40,451 nucleotides of DNA, taken from a virus. Numbering within the stretch: the stretch's first letter is position 1; each line of letters begins with the position of its first letter. Of the stretch, positions 1 through 40,451 are shown piece after piece. The stretch is from positions 1-40,451 of the IMG/VR virus record IMGVR_UViG_3300042351_000343. One strand, 5' to 3'. Below the pieces are notes generated by a model. The model was given only the letters and a program-made list of their open reading frames with translations, did no database searches and was not told the DNA's origin. A program made the translations under genes and the position numbers.

Positions 1-1943
1 TACAGGCTGGCGTTGTTGTTGGCAGCAATGGCGCCGTGCAGCAAATAGCCTTTGCTCACAATGTAGTAATCCAGTCCGGCCAGCACCTGCTTGGGCGTGT
101 ACTCTTTGAGCGTCCGGTTGATCGTGACCTCCAGAGTCGCGCCGTTAATGACCGTGCTAAAACTGGCCGTGATCGCATTGCGAATGGTGGTGTTGGTCGT
201 CGTGTCAATCGCGGGCTCAGTATCGAGCGACAAAGTGAACTTGTCGATCTCGCTGCCCAACATGTTGAAAACCGTTGGTTTGGAGCCGTAGTAGCTCGCA
301 GCAATGCGCACCGCATCGGCTGGCTGAACTGTGATGGTGCGAGCCGCTGACAGCGGCACCCATCCGGCTCGCAGCGTGCCATCTACCACCGTGCCGCCCA
401 CGGGCGTGCCGTTGATGGTCACGTAGGTAGACAACAGCTTGTCTGTGCGCTCACGGATCGTTACGCGGGTTCCCGCGCTGTCGGTGAATGTTGGAGTGAT
501 GGTTCCAGCGTTTGTGATCGTGCCCGTAGTCCTGAAACTTGATCCGGTAACCGTAGCTCCGGAACTGACAGAGATGCTGATTGCACCAAAACTCACATCC
601 GTGCCAACCTGCGTAACGGGCGTGTGACTCAGGCCACGCCAGAAAGCAGCGTCAGCGTTGTCATAGGCCAGTTTGAACAGGTATTCGGCCATCTGTGCCA
701 CGGTTGCCGATGTTGCTACCGTCAGCGTGCCAGATCCCGTAGTGCTAAAACTGAATGGCGCTGTGACCACGCTGGCGTAAGGTGTGGTGACAAAGGCGGA
801 CTTAGACAGCACAGCAGCAACAGCCACGCCAGAAGTTCCGGCGTTGGTCTTGACATCATATGTAGTTGGCGTTGATGGATAGCCAAATGCCAACACGCTC
901 ACTTGATACTGCGATTTATCTGTGTAGCCCGCACCTGATGTGTTGTATCCCACGTTATGCGCCACGGTGGATTGCAGCACCTCGGAACTGGCGGAGCCTG
1001 TGAAGGTAGTAACGCTCCCAGCGGTGCCACTGTTCAATGGCACGATTACCAGTTTTGCGTCTGAGATGTTTGCGCCAAGCGGAGTCTTTGCAGTAGCAAA
1101 AAGGGTACGAATAATCTGCTTAACACCACCGTTGCCCGCACCTCCACCACCGCCATGATACAAAACCTGCGGATCAACTGATTGCAAAGTCAGTCCTGAT
1201 CCAACAGCATACGTGTCAAGGTTTGTAGCGGTCTGACGAAGCGCTCGAATTGTCCCGCTTGTAGCGTTCAGCACTCGACAACCCACGTTGGTTGACAGAG
1301 GCTGCACGGTTGTCAGCTTCAAACCATCAACTTCAAAAGGCCCTGGGAGTTTGAACCGAGTCAGAGAAGAAGTGCTGAATGCTGCATGAGTGTGTGTGTG
1401 CGTGACGACTTGGTTGTTTCCAGTTGCCAGCAACACATTATTAAATGCAGTTGGGTTTGTTTTGCTGTTTGGCACATCCAAGTCGTTACGGCCTGACTGG
1501 TCATATATGACGCTGCCAGAATCGTGCAAGAAAGTACCAAGTCCCACAATGCACTGAGCTGCCCGAGATGGAACTTCAAACTGACTGTAGCCAAACGCAG
1601 CAGCGTTCTGTCGGTAGTCTATATGCACGCTGCTTGTTGCCAGTTTCAGAGTAATGTCGTACTTTCCCAGCGTGACGTTTGCAGCAGCAGCGTAAGCCCA
1701 GTTAACGTGAGCATTGTTCTGCACGATCACGTAGTAGTTGCCCTCTCGTTGTTCTGTCAGAGTTCCGCTGACTGCATAAATACGGGCTGTACCGCCTGAA
1801 TCAAACACCAATGTGTTGCCGGTGCGAGTGCAGCCAACAGTAGAAAAGGCGGAAGCCAAGTCATCCAAGTTGCCAGAGCCTGTGACCTCGTAGCTGTTGG
1901 CAATGCCTGCAATGGTTTGTGCGGCTGAAAGTGTGAACGGCAT
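1..1943 (-). CDS. large fibre-like structural protein, allele A, 3' part cut by window edge
   Basis: An open frame of 647 codons runs from ATG at 1943 off the left edge. It is a second allele of the complete gene at 36206-38713. Its last roughly 155 visible residues match that protein closely (shared stretches such as TRVTIRERTDKLL and NGTPVGGTVVDG). Its first roughly 490 residues do not, and they are rich in Gly, Ser, Thr and Asn as expected of beta-structured phage fibres. A short THTHTHA run lies near residue 188. The gene sits between portal and scaffold genes, an unusual place for a fibre-like gene. The function is inferred: a surface or decoration protein with an exchangeable N-terminal module. 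No catalytic motif is visible. Confidence 0.8.
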   Translation of the reverse strand, partial: MPFTLSAAQTIAGIANSYEVTGSGNLDDLASAFSTVGCTRTGNTLVFDSGGTARIYAVSGTLTEQREGNYYVIVQNNAHVNWAYAAAANVTLGKYDITLKLATSSVHIDYRQNAAAFGYSQFEVPSRAAQCIVGLGTFLHDSGSVIYDQSGRNDLDVPNSKTNPTAFNNVLLATGNNQVVTHTHTHAAFSTSSLTRFKLPGPFEVDGLKLTTVQPLSTNVGCRVLNATSGTIRALRQTATNLDTYAVGSGLTLQSVDPQVLYHGGGGGAGNGGVKQIIRTLFATAKTPLGANISDAKLVIVPLNSGTAGSVTTFTGSASSEVLQSTVAHNVGYNTSGAGYTDKSQYQVSVLAFGYPSTPTTYDVKTNAGTSGVAVAAVLSKSAFVTTPYASVVTAPFSFSTTGSGTLTVATSATVAQMAEYLFKLAYDNADAAFWRGLSHTPVTQVGTDVSFGAISISVSSGATVTGSSFRTTGTITNAGTITPTFTDSAGTRVTIRERTDKLLSTYVTINGTPVGGTVVDGTLRAGWVPLSAARTITVQPADAVRIAASYYGSKPTVFNMLGSEIDKFTLSLDTEPAIDTTTNTTIRNAITASFSTVINGATLEVTINRTLKEYTPKQVLAGLDYYIVSKGYLLHGAIAANNNASL

Positions 1944-3681
1944 TACTCAGCCCTCCCCTGTGTTGATGTTGCCATGTTTGTTCCTTGTGTCATGTTTACA
2001 GGGTGTCAGTCTTCAATCTTGATGCCGACAATCTTGCCTTTTTCTCTGACAATTTTACGGGGCTTGGTGAGCATGGCGGCTGTTTTAGTTTGGGCTTCTG
2101 CTGTTCGCTCCGATGCGGATTGAATGGCATTTGCTTGCATCTGGACAACTTCTTTCAATGAGTTTACGGCCTCGCTAATTTGGTTTCCTACCTGTTCGCT
2201 GCGTACATCCACCTCAGACCGTGCCCTGGTGCGACCGTCTTCGCCTCGCTCCATCCTTACGCCTTCGTTCATCATTTCTAAGGCGTGTTTTTCTTCGGCC
2301 ATTTGCAGTTCACGCTCTAGCTTCAGGGCTTCAAGTTCCATCTTTCTCTGACTCAGGTCAGGCATGGCGGGTTGAGCTTGTTGCGTTTGTGGCTCTTGAC
2401 CAATACCGGATAAGACTTCAGCGGTCTTAGCTTGGCTCAGTTCTGCGTCTGCGATTGTCTTGATGGTGCTTGCACGGGCTTGGGCTGCTTTGGCTTCGGC
2501 TTCTTCGGCTGCTGCTTGCAGGTACATGGAGTTTGGATCTTGCGGCTGATTTTGCATCTCGGCCATGAGTTCTTGGGCCTCGTCGTCGGTGGGCTTGACC
2601 ACGCCCATGCGCAGGAGCTTCTTGCGGAAGTAGGCATTGGCGTCGCTGATGCCCTCGCCCTCCATGTTCATCATGGCCATGGCGGTGATCACTTGCTGGG
2701 TCTCTGGATCTGCTGTGATCTGGAGCATCCCGGTCAGGGCGCGGACTGTGGCCTCGCGCTTGCTGGTGCTGGATGGGCCGACCTCGGCCACGACGTCAAA
2801 AGTGGCAGAGCTGAGGTCGTTTTGCATGACGACTTCGCCAGTCTGTTGGTCGATGCTGGGCTGCATGAGTTCGACCATCCCGGCCTCGCCTGTGGGGGCG
2901 ATGGTTTTCATCTTGCGCTTGTCTTCGATGTAGACCTCTTTGGCCATGGAGAGCCAGATTTCCCCGCAGCGCTTCATTCCCTTGGCAAAGTTGGACATGT
3001 AGATGAAGGCCTGCATGTCCACGCGAGTCTGGATCATCTCCACGGCCTTGCCTGACATTCCGCTGACCATCTTGTCGGCCCCGGCTGGGTTGCCCAAGAT
3101 GTCTTGCATGTCGGTTTCGGTGATCTGCAAGAGCGCGGCCATGGCCGGTGGTATGTTGGGGGCACGGGTGTAGGCGACGGGGCCCGAAACGGCCTGGTTG
3201 CCATTCTGGTCGGTGATCGGGTTGATCAGCAAATACGGGTAGTCCTTGAGGTTGTCCTCGGACCACATGACCTGGTGGCCTGCGACCTGCTCTGGGGTCA
3301 GGATGGGCTTTTCCACCGATGACAGTGCGGAGATCTCGCCCAGCTTGGACAGCTGCATGTTCTTCAGGCGTTGGGCATCTTTAGCCAAACGCACATGGCC
3401 CATGCAGCGTTCGATGTTGTCCACAAACCACCGTTTACCGTAAACCACAACGATAGGGATGCACTTGCCCGCGATGTAGCCCGCATCCTCCAAGACTCTG
3501 CCGCCCGACATGATGTACTTGCGAACACGTTTGCGCTTGACGCGCTTTTGACGGATCTCAACTGTGCCGATGGCCGCAAGGGTTTCTTCCAGGGTCTCGT
3601 CGTTGGCGAAGTCGGCCTGGGTGTAGCGTTCTTCCTCGCCTGCGATGTTCTGGAAGATGCGGATGGTCTCGGTCTTTTCCT
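1..3681. repeat. left copy of the non-identical terminal overlap (allele A)
   Basis: This segment matches 36744-40451 in gene order and sequence, so the window wraps past a full circular unit of about 36.77 kb (portal stop at 2006 here, 38776 there). Bases 2006 to about 3150 look identical to the other copy. Beyond 3150 scattered, mostly silent differences appear. Bases 1 to about 468 are similar, while about 470-1940 are unrelated to the other copy apart from shared style. The offset changes by 27 bp (9 codons) across the divergent stretch. Confidence 0.93.
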
Positions 3682-4372
3682 CAACCTTGTAATACTCAGC
3701 GACATAAACCACGTCAGGCGTACACCAGTCGAACTCGTACTGATGGATGATCTTGGGCCAGTCGGTTGGATCGTCGCCCCATGTGTCCTTGTAGGCCTGG
3801 CGGGTCATGCTGGTGACGACGTAGCAATACTTGGCGTCGGACTTGTCCTGGCGCTTGGCCCCGAGGTCGAAGAACACGGAGCTGTCAGCGTCAAAGATGG
3901 GTTCAATCCTGATGCGCTGGCGGTCGTCTTCGTCATTCTCCTCGTCTTCGTAGACTGTGCGCAAACGCCATGCGCCGATGCCGCCGCCGACTGCTTCCTC
4001 AAAGGCGTTGTCGTAGGCCTCATCCGCGACGGATGCCTGCTCGTCTGCACGATAGAGACCGTCGCAGACCTCGGCCAGCTTGTCGTTTTCCTGGCCGTCC
4101 TTGCTGACGTAATCGACCGTGATGCGGTTGTTGCGGTACTCGTTGATGATTCGAATCACCGAGAGCATGATCTTGTTGACCTCAAACTTGGGCTTGTTCT
4201 CGTACAAGTCCCAAAGTGGACCCTCCCATTGACTTCCAGCCAAAGAGTAAAAGCGCCGGTCTTGTAGGCATTGCAGGCGCTCGTCTCGGAGGGCTGTCTG
4301 TACGTCATCAAACTGCGCCAGGGCTTCTGCATGCAGGTTGGCGAGGCGTTGGTCGTTGCTCATTCGGGCCAT
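2006..4372 (-). CDS. portal protein (P22-like), allele A
   Basis: The 788-residue protein resembles the P22-type portal family: the length is near the P22 gp1 length (about 725), the N-terminal half is acidic and aromatic, and the C-terminal half is a long Ala/Gln/Glu-rich helical barrel-like region (about residues 600-770). The portal forms the dodecameric ring through which TerL pumps DNA. The start at 4372 is preceded by GAGGAAATCCCC, a good ribosome site. The gene follows terL by 28 bp, the usual terminase-portal order. The last roughly 380 codons look identical to the partial copy at the right end, and codons further upstream differ mainly at third positions. Confidence 0.9.
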   Translation of the reverse strand: MARMSNDQRLANLHAEALAQFDDVQTALRDERLQCLQDRRFYSLAGSQWEGPLWDLYENKPKFEVNKIMLSVIRIINEYRNNRITVDYVSKDGQENDKLAEVCDGLYRADEQASVADEAYDNAFEEAVGGGIGAWRLRTVYEDEENDEDDRQRIRIEPIFDADSSVFFDLGAKRQDKSDAKYCYVVTSMTRQAYKDTWGDDPTDWPKIIHQYEFDWCTPDVVYVAEYYKVEEKTETIRIFQNIAGEEERYTQADFANDETLEETLAAIGTVEIRQKRVKRKRVRKYIMSGGRVLEDAGYIAGKCIPIVVVYGKRWFVDNIERCMGHVRLAKDAQRLKNMQLSKLGEISALSSVEKPILTPEQVAGHQVMWSEDNLKDYPYLLINPITDQNGNQAVSGPVAYTRAPNIPPAMAALLQITETDMQDILGNPAGADKMVSGMSGKAVEMIQTRVDMQAFIYMSNFAKGMKRCGEIWLSMAKEVYIEDKRKMKTIAPTGEAGMVELMQPSIDQQTGEVVMQNDLSSATFDVVAEVGPSSTSKREATVRALTGMLQITADPETQQVITAMAMMNMEGEGISDANAYFRKKLLRMGVVKPTDDEAQELMAEMQNQPQDPNSMYLQAAAEEAEAKAAQARASTIKTIADAELSQAKTAEVLSGIGQEPQTQQAQPAMPDLSQRKMELEALKLERELQMAEEKHALEMMNEGVRMERGEDGRTRARSEVDVRSEQVGNQISEAVNSLKEVVQMQANAIQSASERTAEAQTKTAAMLTKPRKIVREKGKIVGIKIED

Positions 4373-7227: not shown

Positions 7228-7366
7228 ACATCAAACAACCTTCATGATAGTCCCCGTCTTTCCGGAGTGCCAGCTTTGTTTAACGTGCGTAGCTGTCACG
7301 GCAGACTTCCGAGCTGCTACGGGTTTATTTTACCTTATTGTAAGATTTTTTTGCAATTATATTGCA
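7228..7366 (-). promoter_or_regulatory. candidate late promoter with overlapping palindrome
   Basis: Read on the minus strand, TTGCAA (7351-7356) is followed after 18 bp by TAAAAT, a plausible sigma70-type promoter for the late operon. A 15-bp palindrome, TGCAATTATATTGCA at 7352-7366, covers the -35 box and the ninG stop codon and itself contains a perfect TATAAT on the minus strand. A repressor or activator site here would control packaging and structural genes. The rest of the stretch to 7228 shows no gene or clear terminator. Confidence 0.45.
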
Positions 7367-7914
7367 TCTTTCTTTAACCGTCTGGTTTCGGCGTTGTAAT
7401 GCTTGGCGATTTCCTGCAAACCTTCTTTGGTGTACTTTCGCACGGTCTGGTCGGATTCGATTTGCTCTACCCGTTCCAGTCCAATGCGTTCTATCAATCC
7501 TTTGCGGTATGCAAGGACGTTCCCGGCTAGGTACTGATTGCAGTGCTTGCATTGTCCGTGGATGTTGTCCTCGACAAATCTCATGTGTGGTGCAGAACCA
7601 ACACTCCGAAAATGTCCGGCATCTGTTTGGTTTGTCTCAGTGCTTGGTGGTTTTCCACATGAGATACAAGACTTGTCGGCATCCCTGGCCCTTACAAACG
7701 CATTAAACGCTGTCTGAGCGACTTTTACTAACTGGGGCTTAGTCCTCATGGCTTCTAGTTTTTCTCGGGTCTTCTTGCGGTCTTCTTGGGCTTCCTTGGC
7801 GGCTTTCTTTTGTGCCACTTGTCTGGATACCTCAAGGGCGCAAGTTGGGGAACAGACTTTTTGCATGGGCCTAGTGGGGGTGAATTCTGTTTTGCAGACT
7901 TTGCACTTTTTCAT
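7357..7914 (-). CDS. ninG: NinG (Rap-like) recombination protein
   Basis: The family is the lambda NinG/Rap group, which acts with phage recombinases on branched DNA. With the start at 7914 it has 185 residues. The N-terminal zinc-ribbon-like part is CKVCKTEF...KVCSPTCALE. A Lys/Glu-rich linker helix follows, then a second cluster CISCGKP...DAGHF...CKHCN resembling an HNH-type zinc site, and a helical tail. The ATG at 7914 is preceded by GGAGACTGAG and lies just past the PP-loop gene stop. It is the last gene of the minus-strand block before the late promoter region. Confidence 0.88.
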   Translation of the reverse strand: MKKCKVCKTEFTPTRPMQKVCSPTCALEVSRQVAQKKAAKEAQEDRKKTREKLEAMRTKPQLVKVAQTAFNAFVRARDADKSCISCGKPPSTETNQTDAGHFRSVGSAPHMRFVEDNIHGQCKHCNQYLAGNVLAYRKGLIERIGLERVEQIESDQTVRKYTKEGLQEIAKHYNAETRRLKKDAI

Positions 7915-7915
7915 C

Positions 7916-8719
7916 TCAGTCTCCACAAAAGCAAGGGATTGTTTCATCGTTGCCGAAAAAGTCTGTTTGGTCTTTGGCGAATTCCATCATTTGGGCGTAG
8001 CTTGGGCGGTCTTTGCAAAACCGACCGTTGATTTTTGCCTCTTGCTCAGCCCACCAAACAGCACGTTCAGGTTGATGCTGGATGATGCTCAAAATCTGGT
8101 TTCCACCCTTCATAAAGCACAAGTCACAGTTTCCAAGCGTTGTCACCTTGTTTTGGAATGACAAGCCAAGGTCAAAACTATTTGCTTTCCAAAAGGCTTG
8201 AACGTCTGCCTGTGTCACGCCTGTTTTTGCCAAGGGTGCGTGTAGGCTTTCCCGCAATTTCACTACCCTTTTAGGTTCGTCTGCCCTTATCCCCGCAAAG
8301 GTGTCAAATTCTTTGTGTCCAATGCTTTCCATGTACCGCGCAATCGGGGTGATTTTCAGCTCTGTCGTGCAAAACCGCATCACTGAGTTTGGCAAAAAGC
8401 TCTTTCTGTCAATCATTGCCGCAAAGGGTTCACCATTCCTTGCCGCCGTTTCAAAAGTAACTTCCTTCCAGCGGTCTTTGGTTTCCTCTGCGTCCTGGTA
8501 CTCAAGCCAAACAATTGGAACATTCCAGTTTGTCGCGCAGTCGTTCACAAACTTCAAAGTCGCTTCGTCCTCTTTCCCTGTGTTGGCAAAGCAAACCACA
8601 CAATCTTCAGGCAGGCTCATGTCGTGAGCCTCTAGCACCTTGTAAAGCATATATGCCGAAGTTCGGCCACCTGAAAAGCTGATGCAGGTCGGTTCAAGTA
8701 TTTCGAATGGGTTGCTCAT
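7916..8719 (-). CDS. phage PAPS-reductase-like PP-loop ATP pyrophosphatase
   Basis: The 267-residue protein belongs to the PAPS reductase/adenine nucleotide alpha-hydrolase superfamily. The PP-loop is SFSGGRTS at residues 14-21. Further cysteines lie at FCTTELK, CDLCFMKGG and the extreme C-terminal CFCGD, possibly a metal or sulfur-relay site. Members bind ATP and activate a substrate by adenylation. Phage versions have been linked to sulfur metabolism or nucleic-acid modification, but the substrate is unknown. The ATG overlaps the upstream stop as ATGA. It is distinct in sequence from the larger PP-loop protein at 9345-10568. Confidence 0.8.
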   Translation of the reverse strand: MSNPFEILEPTCISFSGGRTSAYMLYKVLEAHDMSLPEDCVVCFANTGKEDEATLKFVNDCATNWNVPIVWLEYQDAEETKDRWKEVTFETAARNGEPFAAMIDRKSFLPNSVMRFCTTELKITPIARYMESIGHKEFDTFAGIRADEPKRVVKLRESLHAPLAKTGVTQADVQAFWKANSFDLGLSFQNKVTTLGNCDLCFMKGGNQILSIIQHQPERAVWWAEQEAKINGRFCKDRPSYAQMMEFAKDQTDFFGNDETIPCFCGD

Positions 8720-9048
8720 CTCATGGCCTTATCAGTTCGGTTGTTTGCGTAAATGTTCGCCTTTTCAGCCTCTATCCGTGCCTGGGCAGCAATCATCATC
8801 CAACGGGTGCGCTCTCTGTTTTCCGTAGCCGCCTGAAGCGCCAATAGGTGCTGTTTGTACCTTTCACCTGCGTAGGCTTCCCGTTCTTGCGCTGCTGTTG
8901 TTTTGTGCCCGTCTAGCTCTGCCTCTTTCATGAGTTCGGCTTTAACGGTCTTTCGCATCTCTTGCATTAGGACTAGCTGGCCCTCTGACACGGCATAGTC
9001 ACCAGCATGGTCTCTCAAATAATCGACTGCTTTATCAAGTGCGTTCAT
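8716..9048 (-). CDS. conserved-type phage protein, helical, 110 aa
   Basis: I chose the ATG at 9048 because GGGGGA lies 7 bases upstream; an in-frame ATG at 9060 is the alternative. The product is almost wholly helical and charged, with Ala/Glu/Arg-rich segments (ERTRWMMIAAQARIEAEKAN), suggesting a coiled coil. It resembles small phage proteins I have seen beside recombination genes, but I assign no function. It sits in an overlapping run between the 66-residue gene and the PP-loop ATPase. Confidence 0.65.
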   Translation of the reverse strand: MNALDKAVDYLRDHAGDYAVSEGQLVLMQEMRKTVKAELMKEAELDGHKTTAAQEREAYAGERYKQHLLALQAATENRERTRWMMIAAQARIEAEKANIYANNRTDKAMR

Positions 9049-9238
9049 TTGATCCCCCATCTTTCTCTTGTTCTTTCAATGATTTGATGCGCTCTGCAAC
9101 CTTCAGGCCCAACCCTTTGTAAAACCCGGATTCGTTCGCTTCCAGTTCTTTTGTCCACCTTCGCATTTCGTCTATCCAGGCAGGCATCATGGCTAACTTG
9201 GCGATGTGGTTGGTCATGTGGTCTAGGTGTTGTTTCAT
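9035..9238 (-). CDS. small helical protein, 67 aa
   Basis: The ATG at 9238 overlaps the stop of the preceding 37-codon gene as ATGA, with GGAGG just upstream. The product is charged and helical (AWIDEMRRWTKELEANESGF, then AERIKSLKEQEK). A different frame (9045-9242) opens at the same site but gives a Pro/Arg-rich product typical of a shadow. No domain recognised. Confidence 0.6.
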   Translation of the reverse strand: MKQHLDHMTNHIAKLAMMPAWIDEMRRWTKELEANESGFYKGLGLKVAERIKSLKEQEKDGGSNERT

Positions 9239-9348
9239 TCATCCTCCAAGTCTCCGGTCAATTTCAGTGCCATTGTTATGACGTGTTCAGGGTACTGCTG
9301 GCCTTCACGTACTCTGTCCAAAATCTTCATTGCTTCAAAATAGTTCAT
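9235..9348 (-). CDS. very small protein, 37 aa
   Basis: The ATG at 9348 overlaps the stop of the IbrA-like gene as ATGA, and the stop at 9235 overlaps the next ATG as ATGA. The peptide (NYFEAMKILDRVREG, then YPEHVITMALKLTGDLEDE) looks like one small helical domain and not random translation. Tight coupling on both sides supports it as a gene. Function unknown. Confidence 0.6.
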   Translation of the reverse strand: MNYFEAMKILDRVREGQQYPEHVITMALKLTGDLEDE

Positions 9349-10568
9349 GTTTTTAGTTCTTCAGCAAAAATGTTCCACTCCAAACGGCGGCGCTTCATTA
9401 AATCCTCATACTTTGCGTATGCGCTTGTTTTTGTCGGTGAAAAACCAAGGTATTTGCACCAGTAATCGTTACGGAGCAAAGTTTTGCACACTCGCCTCCA
9501 GCTTGGCGCTTTGCCAGCGTTTTCGATCTTCAAGTCTGCTGCGTCTGGTATTCCATCGGGATAACCACGGGCAGTCCACCACTTGATGTAAACGGCAATT
9601 TTGTTTTTGTAATGCTGCGCAGTCTTTGGGGGCGTGCTAGATAACAGGCTTTTGGCAAAGCTCTCCCATGTGTGGCCGTTTGGCAGGGTTATGGTGTGGT
9701 TACCCATCACGTTGCCTCGCTCGTTGCTATACATCTTTCCTGTGTTTGCACCATTGACCCGCAAAACTAACTTAGCCCACAAACTAGGCTCAACCACTTG
9801 GTACAACCAAAGACCTTTGCGCGATTCATCACCCATTGGCTCACATATACGCATTTGGCTTAACTTCATGCCTGCTTGGTGCATTCGGTCATACAGCTTG
9901 TTATGGCTTTTTCCTGTCTTGGCATGAAACGTCCAAATATCCTCAACCTTCCAATCGTAAATTGGGTACACGTTCCAAACATTCTCAACCACGTTGGTGG
10001 TAAACATCTTGCCTTCATACGTTGGCTTTTTGCGGCTGATTGAGCGAAAACGGTTGAGGCTTTCTTGTGCGCGAATTCCAACAAAACAGGCGCACTTTTC
10101 GCCCTGTGCGTACCATTGGCCGAAAGTGGGTACAAACTCCTCAAACATGATGCCTTCGTACCAAAACGGAAAATGTGACCCGTCTTTGATGCTGATCTCT
10201 GACTTTTGACGCGCCCACAGATTCTTTTTTGTTTCGTCCCAGGCTGTCCACTCAGGCTCAAACGTAGAACAGGCGTTCCATGTCTTGATTGGCACGGCTA
10301 CCCAATACGGTTCAATGTGGTCGGCGTATTCTTTGTAAATTGCTTCGGCAAAGTCGATGGTCAAAGTAAATTGCGCTTCCCAATCCAAAAAAAACAAGCC
10401 AATTTTGCGGCCACGCTTTTTAGCTTCTTCGCAAACCATGTGAACCATGACGCCGCTATCCTTACCCGCTGAAAAGCTGCAATAGATACGGTCAAAGTTA
10501 TCAAACGTCCATTCGATGCGCTCTTGTGCCGCTTGCAGCACGTTGATTCCAAGTCCACGTTTAGGCAT
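9345..10568 (-). CDS. IbrA-like PAPS-reductase family protein (DUF3440-type)
   Basis: The 407-residue protein carries a PP-loop SFSAGKDS at residues 31-38 and aromatic-rich segments resembling the PAPS reductase-related IbrA family. The start at 10568 has GGAGAG upstream and overlaps the previous stop by 8 bp; an ATG at 10598 is less well placed. In enterobacterial prophages IbrA pairs with ParB-like IbrB, as here (10922-11614), with a 125-residue gene in between. Biochemically the family should adenylate or transfer sulfur, but no substrate is established. It could modify DNA, tRNA or a protein, or be a regulator that has lost activity. Confidence 0.8.
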   Translation of the reverse strand: MPKRGLGINVLQAAQERIEWTFDNFDRIYCSFSAGKDSGVMVHMVCEEAKKRGRKIGLFFLDWEAQFTLTIDFAEAIYKEYADHIEPYWVAVPIKTWNACSTFEPEWTAWDETKKNLWARQKSEISIKDGSHFPFWYEGIMFEEFVPTFGQWYAQGEKCACFVGIRAQESLNRFRSISRKKPTYEGKMFTTNVVENVWNVYPIYDWKVEDIWTFHAKTGKSHNKLYDRMHQAGMKLSQMRICEPMGDESRKGLWLYQVVEPSLWAKLVLRVNGANTGKMYSNERGNVMGNHTITLPNGHTWESFAKSLLSSTPPKTAQHYKNKIAVYIKWWTARGYPDGIPDAADLKIENAGKAPSWRRVCKTLLRNDYWCKYLGFSPTKTSAYAKYEDLMKRRRLEWNIFAEELKT

Positions 10569-10938
10569 TGCAGCTCTCCCACTTGGCGATAACTTCATCG
10601 GCTACACGGTTAGCCATGTCTTGTGCTTCGGGCGTCATGTAAAAATTCCACGCTATGCGCGTTTCTTCTTCGGTTGCGCCGCAAGCAAAACAGCAAGCCG
10701 CTTGACCAATCCACGGGCGCTTTCCTTGGCTTTTGCTCAAATGCTGTTCTGCGCTGATTGGATAGGCGTTAACGGCCCCGATCATTGCCTCCCGGCACTT
10801 TGTCTCTGTTGACAAGATATTTGCAGCGTGTTGAATTTTGTTCATCTCATTTTTCCTTTTTGCCCACATTCCAGATTTAAAGCATTCCCAATTCCAATAG
10901 GGATGCCACTTTTCAAACAGGTCACGAAAGCGGTTCAT
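10561..10938 (-). CDS. unknown 125-aa protein between the IbrB-like and IbrA-like genes
   Basis: The gene overlaps its neighbours on both sides (17 bp and 8 bp). The N-terminal part is Trp/Lys-rich (FEKWHPYWNWECFKSGMWAK). The middle is ISAEQHLSKSQGKRPWIGQA followed by ACCFACGATEEETRIAWNF. Cys-Cys and Cys-X-Ala-Cys pairs could bind metal or act in thiol chemistry. I do not recognise the family. Its position inside the ParB-like/PP-loop pair suggests a shared pathway. Confidence 0.7.
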   Translation of the reverse strand: MNRFRDLFEKWHPYWNWECFKSGMWAKRKNEMNKIQHAANILSTETKCREAMIGAVNAYPISAEQHLSKSQGKRPWIGQAACCFACGATEEETRIAWNFYMTPEAQDMANRVADEVIAKWESCNA

Positions 10939-11614
10939 CTACACCCTCAATTTCTTCAAAGGTTTCAGCTTCCCACGCTTCGGAAAACTCAGCATCTGTA
11001 AACAATCCAGACAATCCCGTGACTTGCTGCAAACGCAAAACCTCGTCCGAATCCATGCCAAGCTCTTTGGCGATCTTTTCATCAGACCAAAAACGGCGCT
11101 TGAGTTCGACAACAATTTCAGACATTGATTCAACCTTATGTTCACCACGGGCACGGTTGTGGCGAATTGTTGATGCCATGCGGTCGTTTTTGTTTTGGCG
11201 GTTGCCATTGATAACAACGGCAGGCAAGTAACCATGAACACGGGCGCGAACTGTCTCTGACTCTTTGCCTACACGATGACGGTGAAATCCATCTACCACC
11301 TCAAACACCCCGTCACGGCTCCATGAAACGATTGGCTGTGTGTAACCATCCTCAGTGATGGAATGCTCCAGCAACTTCATTTCAGGTGGCGCTACGCTGT
11401 TTGGGTTGTAGTCGTTGGCGCTAACCAAGTCTGACTTAATCCAGCGAACACAATCCACTGGTTCGTTTTTGAACGGCGAATAAGGAAGCAAGGCCAAACG
11501 AATGTCATTGATTGCGTCAATGCGGTCTTGCAGGTCTAGGCTATCAAGTTTGGAAAACAAAGCTGCACATTCATTTGCAATCATTGTTTTTTCTTGGGTA
11601 TCAAACAAATCCAT
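10922..11614 (-). CDS. IbrB-like ParB/sulfiredoxin-fold protein
   Basis: The 230-residue protein contains a ParB-like N-terminal domain: VDCVRWIKSDLVSANDYNPN, LLEHSITEDGYTQPIV and VVDGFHRHRVGKE (about residues 40-120). A helix-turn-helix-like region follows (WSDEKIAKELGMDSDEVLRL), as in ParB relatives. No parA is present, so plasmid-type partition is unlikely. The pairing with the IbrA-like gene points to the prophage IbrA/IbrB module. The ATG at 11614 has AGGAGAAATAG upstream, and a candidate promoter lies at 11640-11680. Confidence 0.82.
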   Translation of the reverse strand: MDLFDTQEKTMIANECAALFSKLDSLDLQDRIDAINDIRLALLPYSPFKNEPVDCVRWIKSDLVSANDYNPNSVAPPEMKLLEHSITEDGYTQPIVSWSRDGVFEVVDGFHRHRVGKESETVRARVHGYLPAVVINGNRQNKNDRMASTIRHNRARGEHKVESMSEIVVELKRRFWSDEKIAKELGMDSDEVLRLQQVTGLSGLFTDAEFSEAWEAETFEEIEGVDEPLS

Positions 11615-36209: not shown

Positions 36210-38713
36210 ACTGGCCCAAATGGATCTGCTTGAGTGCCCACGCCGTCAATAAAGACGTCATTGACTTTGACGATATTTGCATCAACCACCTCACCGGCTT
36301 GCATTGGAGTGCCCAAGGCTGTCACCGATGCTTGCGATGCTTTGTCTGCAAGTGTGGCTTCTTTCGCAAGAACGGTTGACCCTTCAATTTGCACAAGTGT
36401 TGGACCATTTACCAAGGTGTCAGTCTTGGCTTTGATGGCTGCGCTGGTCGCTTCTTTCGCCAGCACGGTTGAGGCGTCTACCTTGGCCGCAATGCTGGAC
36501 TGGTCCGCATCGCCAATACTGGCTTGCATTTGCGTCCAAGGCGCTGTGCCCAGGAACGCGCCTGATGCGTTCAGCACGGTCATGGTGGACTTGACGCCAG
36601 TTATCGGGTCTTCGTAGTAGATTACCAGCGGCACCTCGTAGCCCACGGTCGTCGGCACGATGGCGCTGCCGCCAGAGTCTAGGTCTGCCATGCGGATTTT
36701 GTAGGCCTGGGAATAAGTAACGATAGTGCCTTCACTCATTGAGTACAGGCTTGCATTGTTGTTCTGCGCGATGGCCCCGTGCAGCAAGAATCCACGCGAA
36801 ACGATGTAGTAATCCAGTCCGGCCAGCACCTGCTTGGGCGTGTACTCTTTGAGCGTCCGGTTGATCGTGACTTCAAGAGTTGCGCCGTTAATGACCGTGC
36901 TAAAACTGGCCGTGATCGCATCGCGGATCGTGGTGTTGGTTGTCGTGTCAATCGCGGGTTCAGTATCAAGCGAAAGCGTGAACTTGTCGATCTCGCTGCC
37001 CAGCATGTTGAACACGGTAGGCTTGGAGCCGTAGTAGCTTGCCGCGATTCGCACGGCATCGGCGGGCTGCACGGTGATAACGCGAGCCGCTGACAGCGGC
37101 ACCCATCCGGCTCGCAGCGTGCCGTCAACAACCGTGCCGCCCACGGGCGTGCCGTTGATGGTCACGTAGGTAGACAACAGCTTGTCTGTGCGCTCACGGA
37201 TCGTTACGCGAGTACCTGTGTTGTCGGTGTATGTAACGTCAGTTGTACCGTTGACGGTGATCGTGGTTGTCGTAGTTAAGCTGCTAATGGCTGTGGTCTT
37301 TGTCAGCGCCGAACCTGAATCAACAGCCAGCGACCATGCCCCAATGTTCAGCACGCCGTTGTTGCAAGTCCATGTGTCTGTGCTGGCCCAATTGGTGAAT
37401 TGGCTGATCCAGTAGCGGTAGTAGTTCCAGAGGTCTTGCAGTGTGCGGTTGGCGGCGATCACAATTGACCCGCCAGTTGCGCCCGATGCCGTAAATGCGA
37501 TGCCTGTCAGTGCAGCCGCCGTAGCCTCGTTCACCGTCACAGCAGTTGCCAGAGGAACAAGCGCCATGCCCTTTGCAATCGCCGTATCAGACCCCAACAC
37601 TATTGAGGTGTCTTGTGTCTGGTAATCAAAGGTACGGAACTGGTAATTAGCCGTGCTTAACGGGAATCGCAGATTCTTGGTGTTCGCTGTACCCCACCAG
37701 ACTTGCAGGATTGGTACAGACGCAGCGACACCACTGGCGTTGGTTGTTCCGGTGTAACTCAGAGGCGTGCGAAAGTCCCAAGTTTTGAGGCTGCTTGCCG
37801 TTGTGATCGTTGCCGTTGGGCTGTTGACGGGTGCGTCAGTTGACTTAAACCGTGCATTTTGGATATTGGCCCCTTCAAGGTTTGTTACCTTGAAGGCGAC
37901 TTCTTGAAAAAGCGGGACTACGTGTGCGTTTCTATACCCCGCCGTGGGGTTTTGAATGACTACGTTCAGTGCTGCGCCTTTTGCAGAGTTGTACAGCTCA
38001 ACCCAACCAGCTCCGTAATTGTCAAAGTCGTAAGTCCCATCGACGTTGCTAGGGGCGTAAGCGACAAACTTTGCGTCAGTACCACCAGCAACCGCCCCAA
38101 CATACTGCATCAAGTATTCAGAACCGAATGCCTTGGCTGAAAATTCCGTTGGCATTCTGAAAAGGTCATACGCAACATCGTAATGGCGCGTATTTCGGTA
38201 AATGACGTCTGAGCCGTAAGCTCGCACACGGAGACTACCAGCGCCATTGGCTTTCACTGCGTACTTATCCACACTGTATTCACGGATAATTGCGCCGTTG
38301 GCGTAAAAAATGCCACCGTTCACGTAGTAGCTACCACCGATTAGTGTTGATCTACCTCCAGCCGCAACACCATAACCAGAGGAGGCTAGGTTGTCGGAAT
38401 AATTGGCTGTTAGCCCAAACGCTTGAAAGTGAATTCCTGACGCTTTAGGCGTTACGCCGTCTGCTGCAAATGAGCCAGAGGTGTAATTACCTGTGCCCAA
38501 AACATGCAGGTGATACGGAATCACCGTGCTTTTGGAAGGGTCAGCAATGGTCAACGTCCCTGCAATGTCAATGCCTACGTTGGGGCAGTAGTACAAGAAA
38601 CCATCACCCATAGCAACACGGGTAACGCCTGCCATGCCGTTAATACCGTCCCAGCTTGTGTCTGTTGTGCCTGCTGTTTGGGTGATAATCGTGCCTGAGA
38701 TTGTGAAAGCCAT
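36206..38713 (-). CDS. large fibre-like structural protein, allele B (complete)
   Basis: The 835-residue protein has an N-terminal beta-rich region with repetitive Gly/Asn/Thr sequence (VGIDIAGTLTIADPSK, GRSTLIGGSYYVNGGIFY; about 1-350), a middle module (TAAALTGIAFTASGATGGSI, TLQDLWNYYRYWISQF) seen in other phage structural proteins, and a conserved C-terminal part shared with allele A (from TRVTIRERTDKLL). Repeated VDASTVLAKEATSAAIKAKT and IEGSTVLAKEATLAD segments lie near the end and suggest a trimeric coiled coil. It is probably a virion fibre or adhesin, encoded unusually between portal and scaffold. Confidence 0.78.
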   Translation of the reverse strand: MAFTISGTIITQTAGTTDTSWDGINGMAGVTRVAMGDGFLYYCPNVGIDIAGTLTIADPSKSTVIPYHLHVLGTGNYTSGSFAADGVTPKASGIHFQAFGLTANYSDNLASSGYGVAAGGRSTLIGGSYYVNGGIFYANGAIIREYSVDKYAVKANGAGSLRVRAYGSDVIYRNTRHYDVAYDLFRMPTEFSAKAFGSEYLMQYVGAVAGGTDAKFVAYAPSNVDGTYDFDNYGAGWVELYNSAKGAALNVVIQNPTAGYRNAHVVPLFQEVAFKVTNLEGANIQNARFKSTDAPVNSPTATITTASSLKTWDFRTPLSYTGTTNASGVAASVPILQVWWGTANTKNLRFPLSTANYQFRTFDYQTQDTSIVLGSDTAIAKGMALVPLATAVTVNEATAAALTGIAFTASGATGGSIVIAANRTLQDLWNYYRYWISQFTNWASTDTWTCNNGVLNIGAWSLAVDSGSALTKTTAISSLTTTTTITVNGTTDVTYTDNTGTRVTIRERTDKLLSTYVTINGTPVGGTVVDGTLRAGWVPLSAARVITVQPADAVRIAASYYGSKPTVFNMLGSEIDKFTLSLDTEPAIDTTTNTTIRDAITASFSTVINGATLEVTINRTLKEYTPKQVLAGLDYYIVSRGFLLHGAIAQNNNASLYSMSEGTIVTYSQAYKIRMADLDSGGSAIVPTTVGYEVPLVIYYEDPITGVKSTMTVLNASGAFLGTAPWTQMQASIGDADQSSIAAKVDASTVLAKEATSAAIKAKTDTLVNGPTLVQIEGSTVLAKEATLADKASQASVTALGTPMQAGEVVDANIVKVNDVFIDGVGTQADPFGPV

Positions 38714-40451
38714 TATTCAGCCCTCCCCTGTTTTGATGTTGCCATGTTTGTTCCTTGTGTCATGTTTGCAGGGTGTCAGTCTTCAATCTTGATGCCGACA
38801 ATCTTGCCTTTTTCTCTGACAATTTTACGGGGCTTGGTGAGCATGGCGGCTGTTTTAGTTTGGGCTTCTGCTGTTCGCTCCGATGCGGATTGAATGGCAT
38901 TTGCTTGCATCTGGACAACTTCTTTCAATGAGTTTACGGCCTCGCTAATTTGGTTTCCTACCTGTTCGCTGCGTACATCCACCTCAGACCGTGCCCTGGT
39001 GCGACCGTCTTCGCCTCGCTCCATCCTTACGCCTTCGTTCATCATTTCTAAGGCGTGTTTTTCTTCGGCCATTTGCAGTTCACGCTCTAGCTTCAGGGCT
39101 TCAAGTTCCATCTTTCTCTGACTCAGGTCAGGCATGGCGGGTTGAGCTTGTTGCGTTTGTGGCTCTTGACCAATACCGGATAAGACTTCAGCGGTCTTAG
39201 CTTGGCTCAGTTCTGCGTCTGCGATTGTCTTGATGGTGCTTGCACGGGCTTGGGCTGCTTTGGCTTCGGCTTCTTCGGCTGCTGCTTGCAGGTACATGGA
39301 GTTTGGATCTTGCGGCTGATTTTGCATCTCGGCCATGAGTTCTTGGGCCTCGTCGTCGGTGGGCTTGACCACGCCCATGCGCAGGAGCTTCTTGCGGAAG
39401 TAGGCATTGGCGTCGCTGATGCCCTCGCCCTCCATGTTCATCATGGCCATGGCGGTGATCACTTGCTGGGTCTCTGGATCTGCTGTGATCTGGAGCATCC
39501 CGGTCAGGGCGCGGACTGTGGCCTCGCGCTTGCTGGTGCTGGATGGGCCGACCTCGGCCACGACGTCAAAAGTGGCAGAGCTGAGGTCGTTTTGCATGAC
39601 GACTTCGCCAGTCTGTTGGTCGATGCTGGGCTGCATGAGTTCGACCATCCCGGCCTCGCCTGTGGGGGCGATGGTTTTCATCTTGCGCTTGTCTTCGATG
39701 TAGACCTCTTTGGCCATGGAGAGCCAGATTTCCCCGCAGCGCTTCATTCCCTTGGCAAAGTTGGACATGTAGATGAAGGCCTGCATGTCCACGCGAGTCT
39801 GGATCATCTCCACGGCCTTGCCTGACATTCCGCTGACCATCTTGTCGGCCCCGGCTGGGTTGCCCAAGATGTCTTGCATGTCGGTTTCGGTGATCTGCAA
39901 GAGCGCGGCCATGGCCGGTGGAATGTTGGGGGCGCGGGTGTAGGCCACCGGGCCGCTGACTGCCTGGTTGCCATTCTGGTCGGTGATCGGGTTGATGAGC
40001 AAATACGGGTAGTCTTTGAGGTTGTCCTCGGACCACATGACCTGGTGGCCTGCGACCTGCTCTGGAGTCAGGATGGGCTTCTCGACCGATGACAGTGCGG
40101 AGATCTCGCCAAGCTTGGACAGCTGCATGTTCTTGAGGCGCTGGGCGTCTTTGGCCAGACGCACGTGGCCCATGCAGCGCTCGATGTTGTCCACAAACCA
40201 ACGCTTGCCGTACACCACCACGATGGGAATGCACTTGCCTGCGATGTAACCGGCATCCTCCAAGACCTTGCCGCCTGACATGATGTATTTGCGAACGCGC
40301 TTGCGCTTGACGCGCTTCTGGCGGATCTCCACCGTGCCGATGGCAGCGAGGGTTTCTTCCAGGGTCTCGTCGTTGGCGAAGTCGGCCTGGGTGTAGCGCT
40401 CTTCCTCACCTGCGATGTTCTGGAAGATGCGGATGGTCTCGGTCTTTTCCT
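36744..40451. repeat. right copy of the non-identical terminal overlap (allele B)
   Basis: This segment corresponds to 1-3681. The portal segment 38776-39920 looks identical to 2006-3150. From 39921 to the edge, differences appear that are mostly silent in the portal protein. On the other side, 37215-38710 is a different N-terminal module from 470-1940. The intergenic stretch 38714-38775 differs from 1944-2005 at only a few bases. Confidence 0.93.
38776..40451 (-). CDS. portal protein, allele B, 5' part cut by window edge
   Basis: The frame encodes the C-terminal 558 residues of the same P22-like portal as 2006-4372 and runs off the right edge. The product looks almost identical: the clearest change is SGGK versus SGGR in the KYIMSGG region, although the DNA there differs at many third positions. 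Mostly silent change means both alleles have been under selection for function, so this is not a decaying duplicate. Confidence 0.9.
   Translation of the reverse strand, partial: EKTETIRIFQNIAGEEERYTQADFANDETLEETLAAIGTVEIRQKRVKRKRVRKYIMSGGKVLEDAGYIAGKCIPIVVVYGKRWFVDNIERCMGHVRLAKDAQRLKNMQLSKLGEISALSSVEKPILTPEQVAGHQVMWSEDNLKDYPYLLINPITDQNGNQAVSGPVAYTRAPNIPPAMAALLQITETDMQDILGNPAGADKMVSGMSGKAVEMIQTRVDMQAFIYMSNFAKGMKRCGEIWLSMAKEVYIEDKRKMKTIAPTGEAGMVELMQPSIDQQTGEVVMQNDLSSATFDVVAEVGPSSTSKREATVRALTGMLQITADPETQQVITAMAMMNMEGEGISDANAYFRKKLLRMGVVKPTDDEAQELMAEMQNQPQDPNSMYLQAAAEEAEAKAAQARASTIKTIADAELSQAKTAEVLSGIGQEPQTQQAQPAMPDLSQRKMELEALKLERELQMAEEKHALEMMNEGVRMERGEDGRTRARSEVDVRSEQVGNQISEAVNSLKEVVQMQANAIQSASERTAEAQTKTAAMLTKPRKIVREKGKIVGIKIED

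Follow-up and report, generated by a model that had tools for sequence, protein, structure and literature searches.

The closest described relatives of the locus analysed here are the IbrAB pairs of E. coli ECOR-9, of the E. coli chromosome (YbdN/YbdM) and of phages (PMC4490671, PMC4541368), in which a PP-loop protein with a DUF3440 domain (IbrA) and a ParB-like protein (IbrB) are encoded by adjacent and often overlapping genes. Our literature search on the two proteins gave little past annotation names. In the Dnd and Dpd systems, too, ParB-superfamily proteins occur together with PP-loop enzymes or base-modifying enzymes (PMC12839542, PMC11662687), the pairing of DndB with the PP-loop protein DndC being comparable to that of IbrB with IbrA. 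A further point of reference is the nin region of phage lambda, whose NinC is itself poorly understood (PMC3224144).

The window, by which we mean the entire stretch of DNA analysed (40,451 bases), is a linear IMG/VR record derived from a tailed phage with a portal protein, a terminase, an Erf-like annealing protein and NinG. The start of the contig is repeated at its end: positions 1-491 and 1925-3681 are 89% and 97% identical to positions 36744-37234 and 38695-40451, respectively, and the portal gene occurs twice. Because of this repeat the assembly has probably continued beyond its own beginning, with strain variants, and the genome itself would measure about 36.7 kb; the record is nevertheless classed as linear and without end repeats.

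On the minus strand, from position 11614 down to 7357, the genes are ordered as follows: the ParB-like protein IbrB, a protein of 125 residues which we label U125, IbrA, three small ORFs, a second, NinC-like PP-loop protein which we label PP2, and NinG. A sequence-only reading had treated the genes at 7916-11614 as one modification module translated as a single overlapping run, and all of the ORFs it named are indeed real, on the minus strand and in such a run. However, overlaps of 4 to 38 bases join adjacent genes along the whole run, NinG included, and equally tight overlap recurs in the TerS-dcm-TerL genes of the same window. Overlap does not, therefore, mark a module here; it is a property of a compact transcript and alone cannot define one. 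Promoter and terminator counts in the window did not exceed those in shuffled sequence. Instead of forming a single module, the run splits into an IbrB/U125/IbrA cassette (9345-11614) and a nin region with the NinC-like gene and NinG.

This division emerges from gene neighbourhoods. Viral contigs were scanned with each component alone and the other components were counted within 4 kb; each scan covered the 80 closest relatives, such that the counts describe the neighbourhood of the seeding family, and many of the records are fragments. Around the best 80 U125 matches, IbrA was present in 78/80 loci and ParB in 77/80, while the best 80 ParB matches were accompanied by IbrA in 78/80 and by U125 in 77/80. 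In both sets, the two loci without IbrA stop at a contig end. Seen from IbrA, the ParB cluster is present in 54 of 63 loci. All 136 distinct ParB/U125/IbrA triplets lie on one strand, and the three orders in which they occur (ParB-U125-IbrA in 106, U125-IbrA-ParB in 23 and IbrA-ParB-U125 in seven) are rotations of one cyclic order. In 16 loci ParB and U125 form a single fused protein, one of these loci being in a bacterial MAG (L154). Cultured phages with U125 comprise Pseudomonas phage Amjad_SA, Microcystis phage Mwe-JY13, Pseudoalteromonas phage XCL1123 and the mycobacteriophages Gaia and Nebkiss, all five of which also appear among the IbrA matches. IbrB, U125 and IbrA are a tight cassette, inherited as one unit, which is found among the early genes of phages with many different hosts. 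The co-occurrence analysis proposed along with the sequence-only reading thus upheld its grouping of these three proteins, which are nearly always together, and not its inclusion of the second PP-loop protein, which is rarely with them (1/80). Nor could the two methyltransferases of the same genome, previously offered as circumstantial support for modification, be retained as members: within 4 kb of the U125-seeded loci, the N6/N4 enzyme was found in 2/80 and the cytosine enzyme in 4/80.

The component which distinguishes this cassette from E. coli IbrAB, YbdN/YbdM and the phage IbrAB pairs, none of which has an adjacent U125, is the 125-residue protein itself (10561-10938, minus strand). U125 belongs to no Pfam, PHROG, NCBIfam or PADLOC family; no member of its 39-sequence alignment matches PHROGs, and Pfam returned two isolated weak matches only. 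AlphaFold2 models it with confidence (pLDDT 94.1, pTM 0.87) as an entirely helical protein. A sequence profile found no match in the PDB, and a Foldseek search of the PDB with the model gave no match with an E-value below 2.8. Searching BFVD with the same model produced one viral relative, which at 116 residues is as long as the U125 protein of XCL1123. Seven positions are invariant in the 39 sequences (E18, S62, G78, A80, A109, A113 and W120), of which E18, G78, A80, A109 and A113 are kept at 95% or above in 123 non-redundant members. The CCFAC motif to which attention had been drawn is present in the U125 of the window, but is not a feature of the family: across the 123 members C82 is conserved in 59%, C83 in 46% and C86 in 2%. 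Such poor conservation rules the motif out as a metal site. A plasmid search for U125 gave no match at the sensitivity applied. In the literature searched, which did not take in most subscription journals, neither U125 nor its constant association with IbrAB is described; IbrAB itself is known, and U125 as the third part of its cassette is new.

IbrAB pairs without U125 (E. coli YbdNM and those of Streptococcus and Flavobacterium phages) indicate that the protein is not needed in every lineage. On a quick maximum-likelihood tree of IbrA, the presence of U125 changes state three times, possibly through one gain and two losses; on the same tree YbdN and the IbrA of PhiR5_2, both without U125, are sister to the clade of the window's IbrA. 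In one clade (L012, L045, L273 and L290), an unrelated family of 108-129 residues replaces U125 directly upstream of IbrA (L273:3407-3793, L012:571-945 and L045:5991-6314, as well as L290). The member checked, that of L273, has no Pfam match.

The genes downstream of the cassette belong elsewhere. PP2 (7916-8719, minus strand; 267 residues, with an SGGRTS loop) is a homologue of lambda NinC (Orf290; 290 residues), with 32% identity over 203 residues (BLASTP E-value 1e-26) and an hhalign probability of 99.9%; it also matches phrog_424 and PAPS_reduct, and its relatives in cultured phages are annotated either as NinC or as 'PAPS reductase'. It overlaps by 32 bases the gene for NinG (Rap), a Holliday-junction nuclease (7357-7947, minus strand; PF05766, 197.6 bits) which is 37% identical to lambda NinG. 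These two genes are a nin region, separate from the cassette, although other nin genes were not identified in the window. Among the best 80 PP2-seeded loci, IbrA, U125 and ParB were nearby in one, which is the same phage in another sample (L003). Searches of whole records agree with this count. The 32 whole viral records with PP2 contained no clear IbrA, the two weak matches falling in 267-residue frames which resemble PP2 itself. Conversely, the 43 whole U125 records yielded one weak, partial NinC-type match (G017, 45 positions) and two other weak matches confined to the PP-loop common to both families, in frames the size of IbrA. The NinC-like gene stands beside the cassette by chance only, and a single module with two PP-loop enzymes is rejected by the neighbourhood counts and the whole-record searches alike.

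The small ORFs between the two units have weaker affinities. The family of the 37-residue ORF (9235-9348, minus strand), a phage small-protein family, is commoner with the NinC-like gene than with IbrA, occurring within 4 kb in 29/80 PP2-seeded and 7/80 U125-seeded loci; 79 of the fetched loci contain a member, in many cases next to the NinC-like gene. The 114-residue ORF (8716-9060, minus strand) belongs to a small phage family which accompanies the NinC-like gene within 4 kb in 24/80 PP2-seeded loci, while the 67-residue ORF (9035-9238, minus strand) matches no Pfam or PHROG family.

NinC-like proteins bear on the suggestion that the whole run is one DndC-type module for the sulfur modification of DNA or RNA. 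Two PP-loop proteins do lie within one overlapping run, and PP2 matches SspD (2.6e-13) with conserved C117, C198xxC201, C263 and C265, a spacing which we take to resemble that of iron-sulfur APS reductases. Since the SGGRTS loop and these five cysteines are kept at 95% or above in 41 non-redundant members, it is quite possible that the NinC-like protein is an active iron-sulfur PP-loop enzyme; the family profile found no match in the PDB. Yet the near-complete separation of the NinC-like and IbrA families just described, together with the placement of the NinC-like gene next to NinG as in lambda, largely refutes a common sulfur module by gene order. A cysteine desulfurase is also absent from the record, as had been anticipated: PF00266 was not matched, control genomes were positive, and a host enzyme could replace it. 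For DndE, neither the record nor any of the control genomes gave a match. We consider a single sulfur module highly improbable.

The cassette's own PP-loop protein, IbrA (minus strand), is better placed at 9345-10568 than at the ORF-list start of 10598, as its relatives begin MPKxxLG. It matches DUF3440 (PF11922) at 135.1 bits, against a curated cut-off of 25, and PAPS_reduct (PF01507) at 58.7 bits. Three motifs are nearly invariant, namely S43-x-G45-K46-D47-S48, G174-I-R176..E179-S180-L-N-R183 and Y211-P-x-Y-D215-W, and S43, G45, K46, D47 and S48 are conserved at 95% or above. Loops of the SxGKDS type bind ATP and form adenylated intermediates, and PAPS reductases have lost this signature; by profile, the IbrA loop aligns to SSSFGIQ, the degenerate loop found in true PAPS reductases. 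The IbrA model (pLDDT 82) matches CysH (top), ATP sulfurylase CysD and FMN adenylyltransferase in fold, with a TM-score of 0.66 by target to human FAD synthase (8rom). From these enzymes, with which its N-terminal domain has a common fold, IbrA differs in its additional DUF3440 C-terminal domain and its two partner proteins.

These data do not sit comfortably with IbrA as a phage PAPS reductase, a cysH-like auxiliary metabolic gene boosting host sulfate assimilation. Such a role would suit the Pfam and PHROG names and the top fold match, and phage cysH has been reported as an auxiliary metabolic gene, for example in viruses of green sulfur bacteria (PMC8226683). Against it, the ATP-type SxGKDS replaces the CysH loop; the protein has no ECGLH-type catalytic cysteine tail, its only frequent cysteines being C381 (94%), C252 (73%) and C371 (71%); and a single-enzyme step would have no use for constant ParB and U125 partners. 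We regard this role as very unlikely and, given the retained ATP-type loop, 'PAPS reductase' as probably a misnomer for IbrA, judging by its sequence motifs. Phage annotations under this name cover at least two distinct sets of proteins, IbrA and NinC. Homologues of IbrAB, known from phages infecting many groups of bacteria and from the chromosome of E. coli K-12 (YbdN/YbdM), can easily be mistaken for genes of sulfate assimilation.

A DndC-like sulfur role for the cassette, as envisaged in the sequence-only reading, is weakened on similar grounds, because IbrA has no conserved CxxC pair and is without the iron-sulfur cysteines of DndC-type enzymes, and because CCFAC is not conserved in U125. 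IbrA matches DndC weakly (3.5e-06), and U125 matches no Dnd model. Sulfur chemistry for IbrA is possible but not indicated.

IbrB (10922-11614, minus strand; 230 residues), a protein of the ParB/Srx fold, matches phrog_2159 at 2.4e-68 and Pfam ParB_N (PF02195) at 22.3 bits, below cut-off, and has invariant DG(F)HR and TIRHNRARG.H motifs in 89 non-redundant members. Nucleotides and DNA can both be bound by the ParB fold (PMC12704722); in the main text of that ParB survey, IbrA, PAPS reductase and DUF3440 are absent. By analogy with the partners of ParB-superfamily proteins in Dnd and Dpd, a nucleic acid would be a reasonable target for the cassette.

On balance, we think it probable that 9345-11614 encodes an IbrAB pair extended by U125 as a third subunit, and that the cassette forms an ATP-dependent activating and modifying complex, not a phosphorothioation system. 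The proposal builds on the observed co-inheritance, fusions, conserved ATP site, fold class and separateness of NinC, to which it adds complex formation, adenylation, a substrate and a role for each subunit. IbrA would bind ATP in its CysD/FAD-synthase-like PP-loop site and adenylate, and so activate, a substrate. IbrB, as a nucleotide binder, would act as its partner or regulator, supplying a second nucleotide site and perhaps positioning IbrA on nucleic acid, while U125 would be a structural or specificity subunit bridging the two. The product, made during infection, would probably be a modified nucleic acid or metabolite, which some lineages may process further with an acetyltransferase or an ectoine-synthase-like cupin.

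Genes for both of these enzymes are minority accessories of the cassette. A GNAT acetyltransferase lies inside or directly beside it in 14 loci, which are all of the loci found with GNAT; in 11 of them it separates U125 from IbrA, and in three it is elsewhere in or beside the cassette. Loci with GNAT include L201, L202, L244, L151, L248, L251 and L256. An ectoine-synthase-like (EctC-like) cupin (PF06339, 1e-33) occurs in 10 loci of one IbrA clade and is fused to ParB in five of these (L149:4308-5204, which is Gaia gp104, L195, L196, L199 and L229). It stands alone beside ParB in XCL1123 and others. The intact ATP PP-loop of IbrA and the presence of these genes in some cassettes keep the originally suggested modification-type chemistry plausible. 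A more specific form, in which IbrA-IbrB-U125 is a new nucleic-acid modification complex, with IbrA using ATP to activate a phosphate or base, IbrB and U125 picking the site, and the GNAT or ectoine-synthase-like partners building an amino-acid-like adduct in some phages, is offered tentatively, as one possibility. U125, with its fold unlike that of any solved protein, the fusions and the enzyme partners provide a concrete gene set for co-expression and assay.

Enzyme accessories also point to a chemical product rather than to gene regulation alone. As a transcriptional co-activator set, IbrAB-U125 would alter host or prophage expression without a modified product, in keeping with the name 'co-activators of prophage gene expression' found in the literature (PMC5874904), with the proposal of E. 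coli IbrAB as an activator of eib genes (Sandt 2002, as cited in PMC10434257) and with the binding abilities of the ParB fold (PMC12704722). A pure co-activator would, however, have no need of the near-invariant PP-loop, adenylyltransferase-type core of IbrA, and GNAT and EctC-like genes join the cassette; we judge this role rather unlikely. A defence or counter-defence device, for instance with IbrB as nucleotide sensor and IbrA as effector, is quite improbable: ParB-like and PP-loop proteins are found repeatedly in Dnd, BREX type 4 and Dpd systems (PMC12839542), but no cassette protein has a strong PADLOC family, no nuclease is a recurring partner inside the cassette, and its placement among early genes, in phages with many different hosts, likewise argues against such a function.

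Two further arrangements involve duplication of IbrA or its parts. In approximately 16 loci, a separate gene paralogous to the C-terminal domain of IbrA (profile positions 318-394) directly follows U125 and the full-length IbrA is also present (for example L153:6299-6610 and L152:6329-6583). On one contig (L176), two full-length IbrA genes of different clades occur together (193-1521 and 2855-4120).
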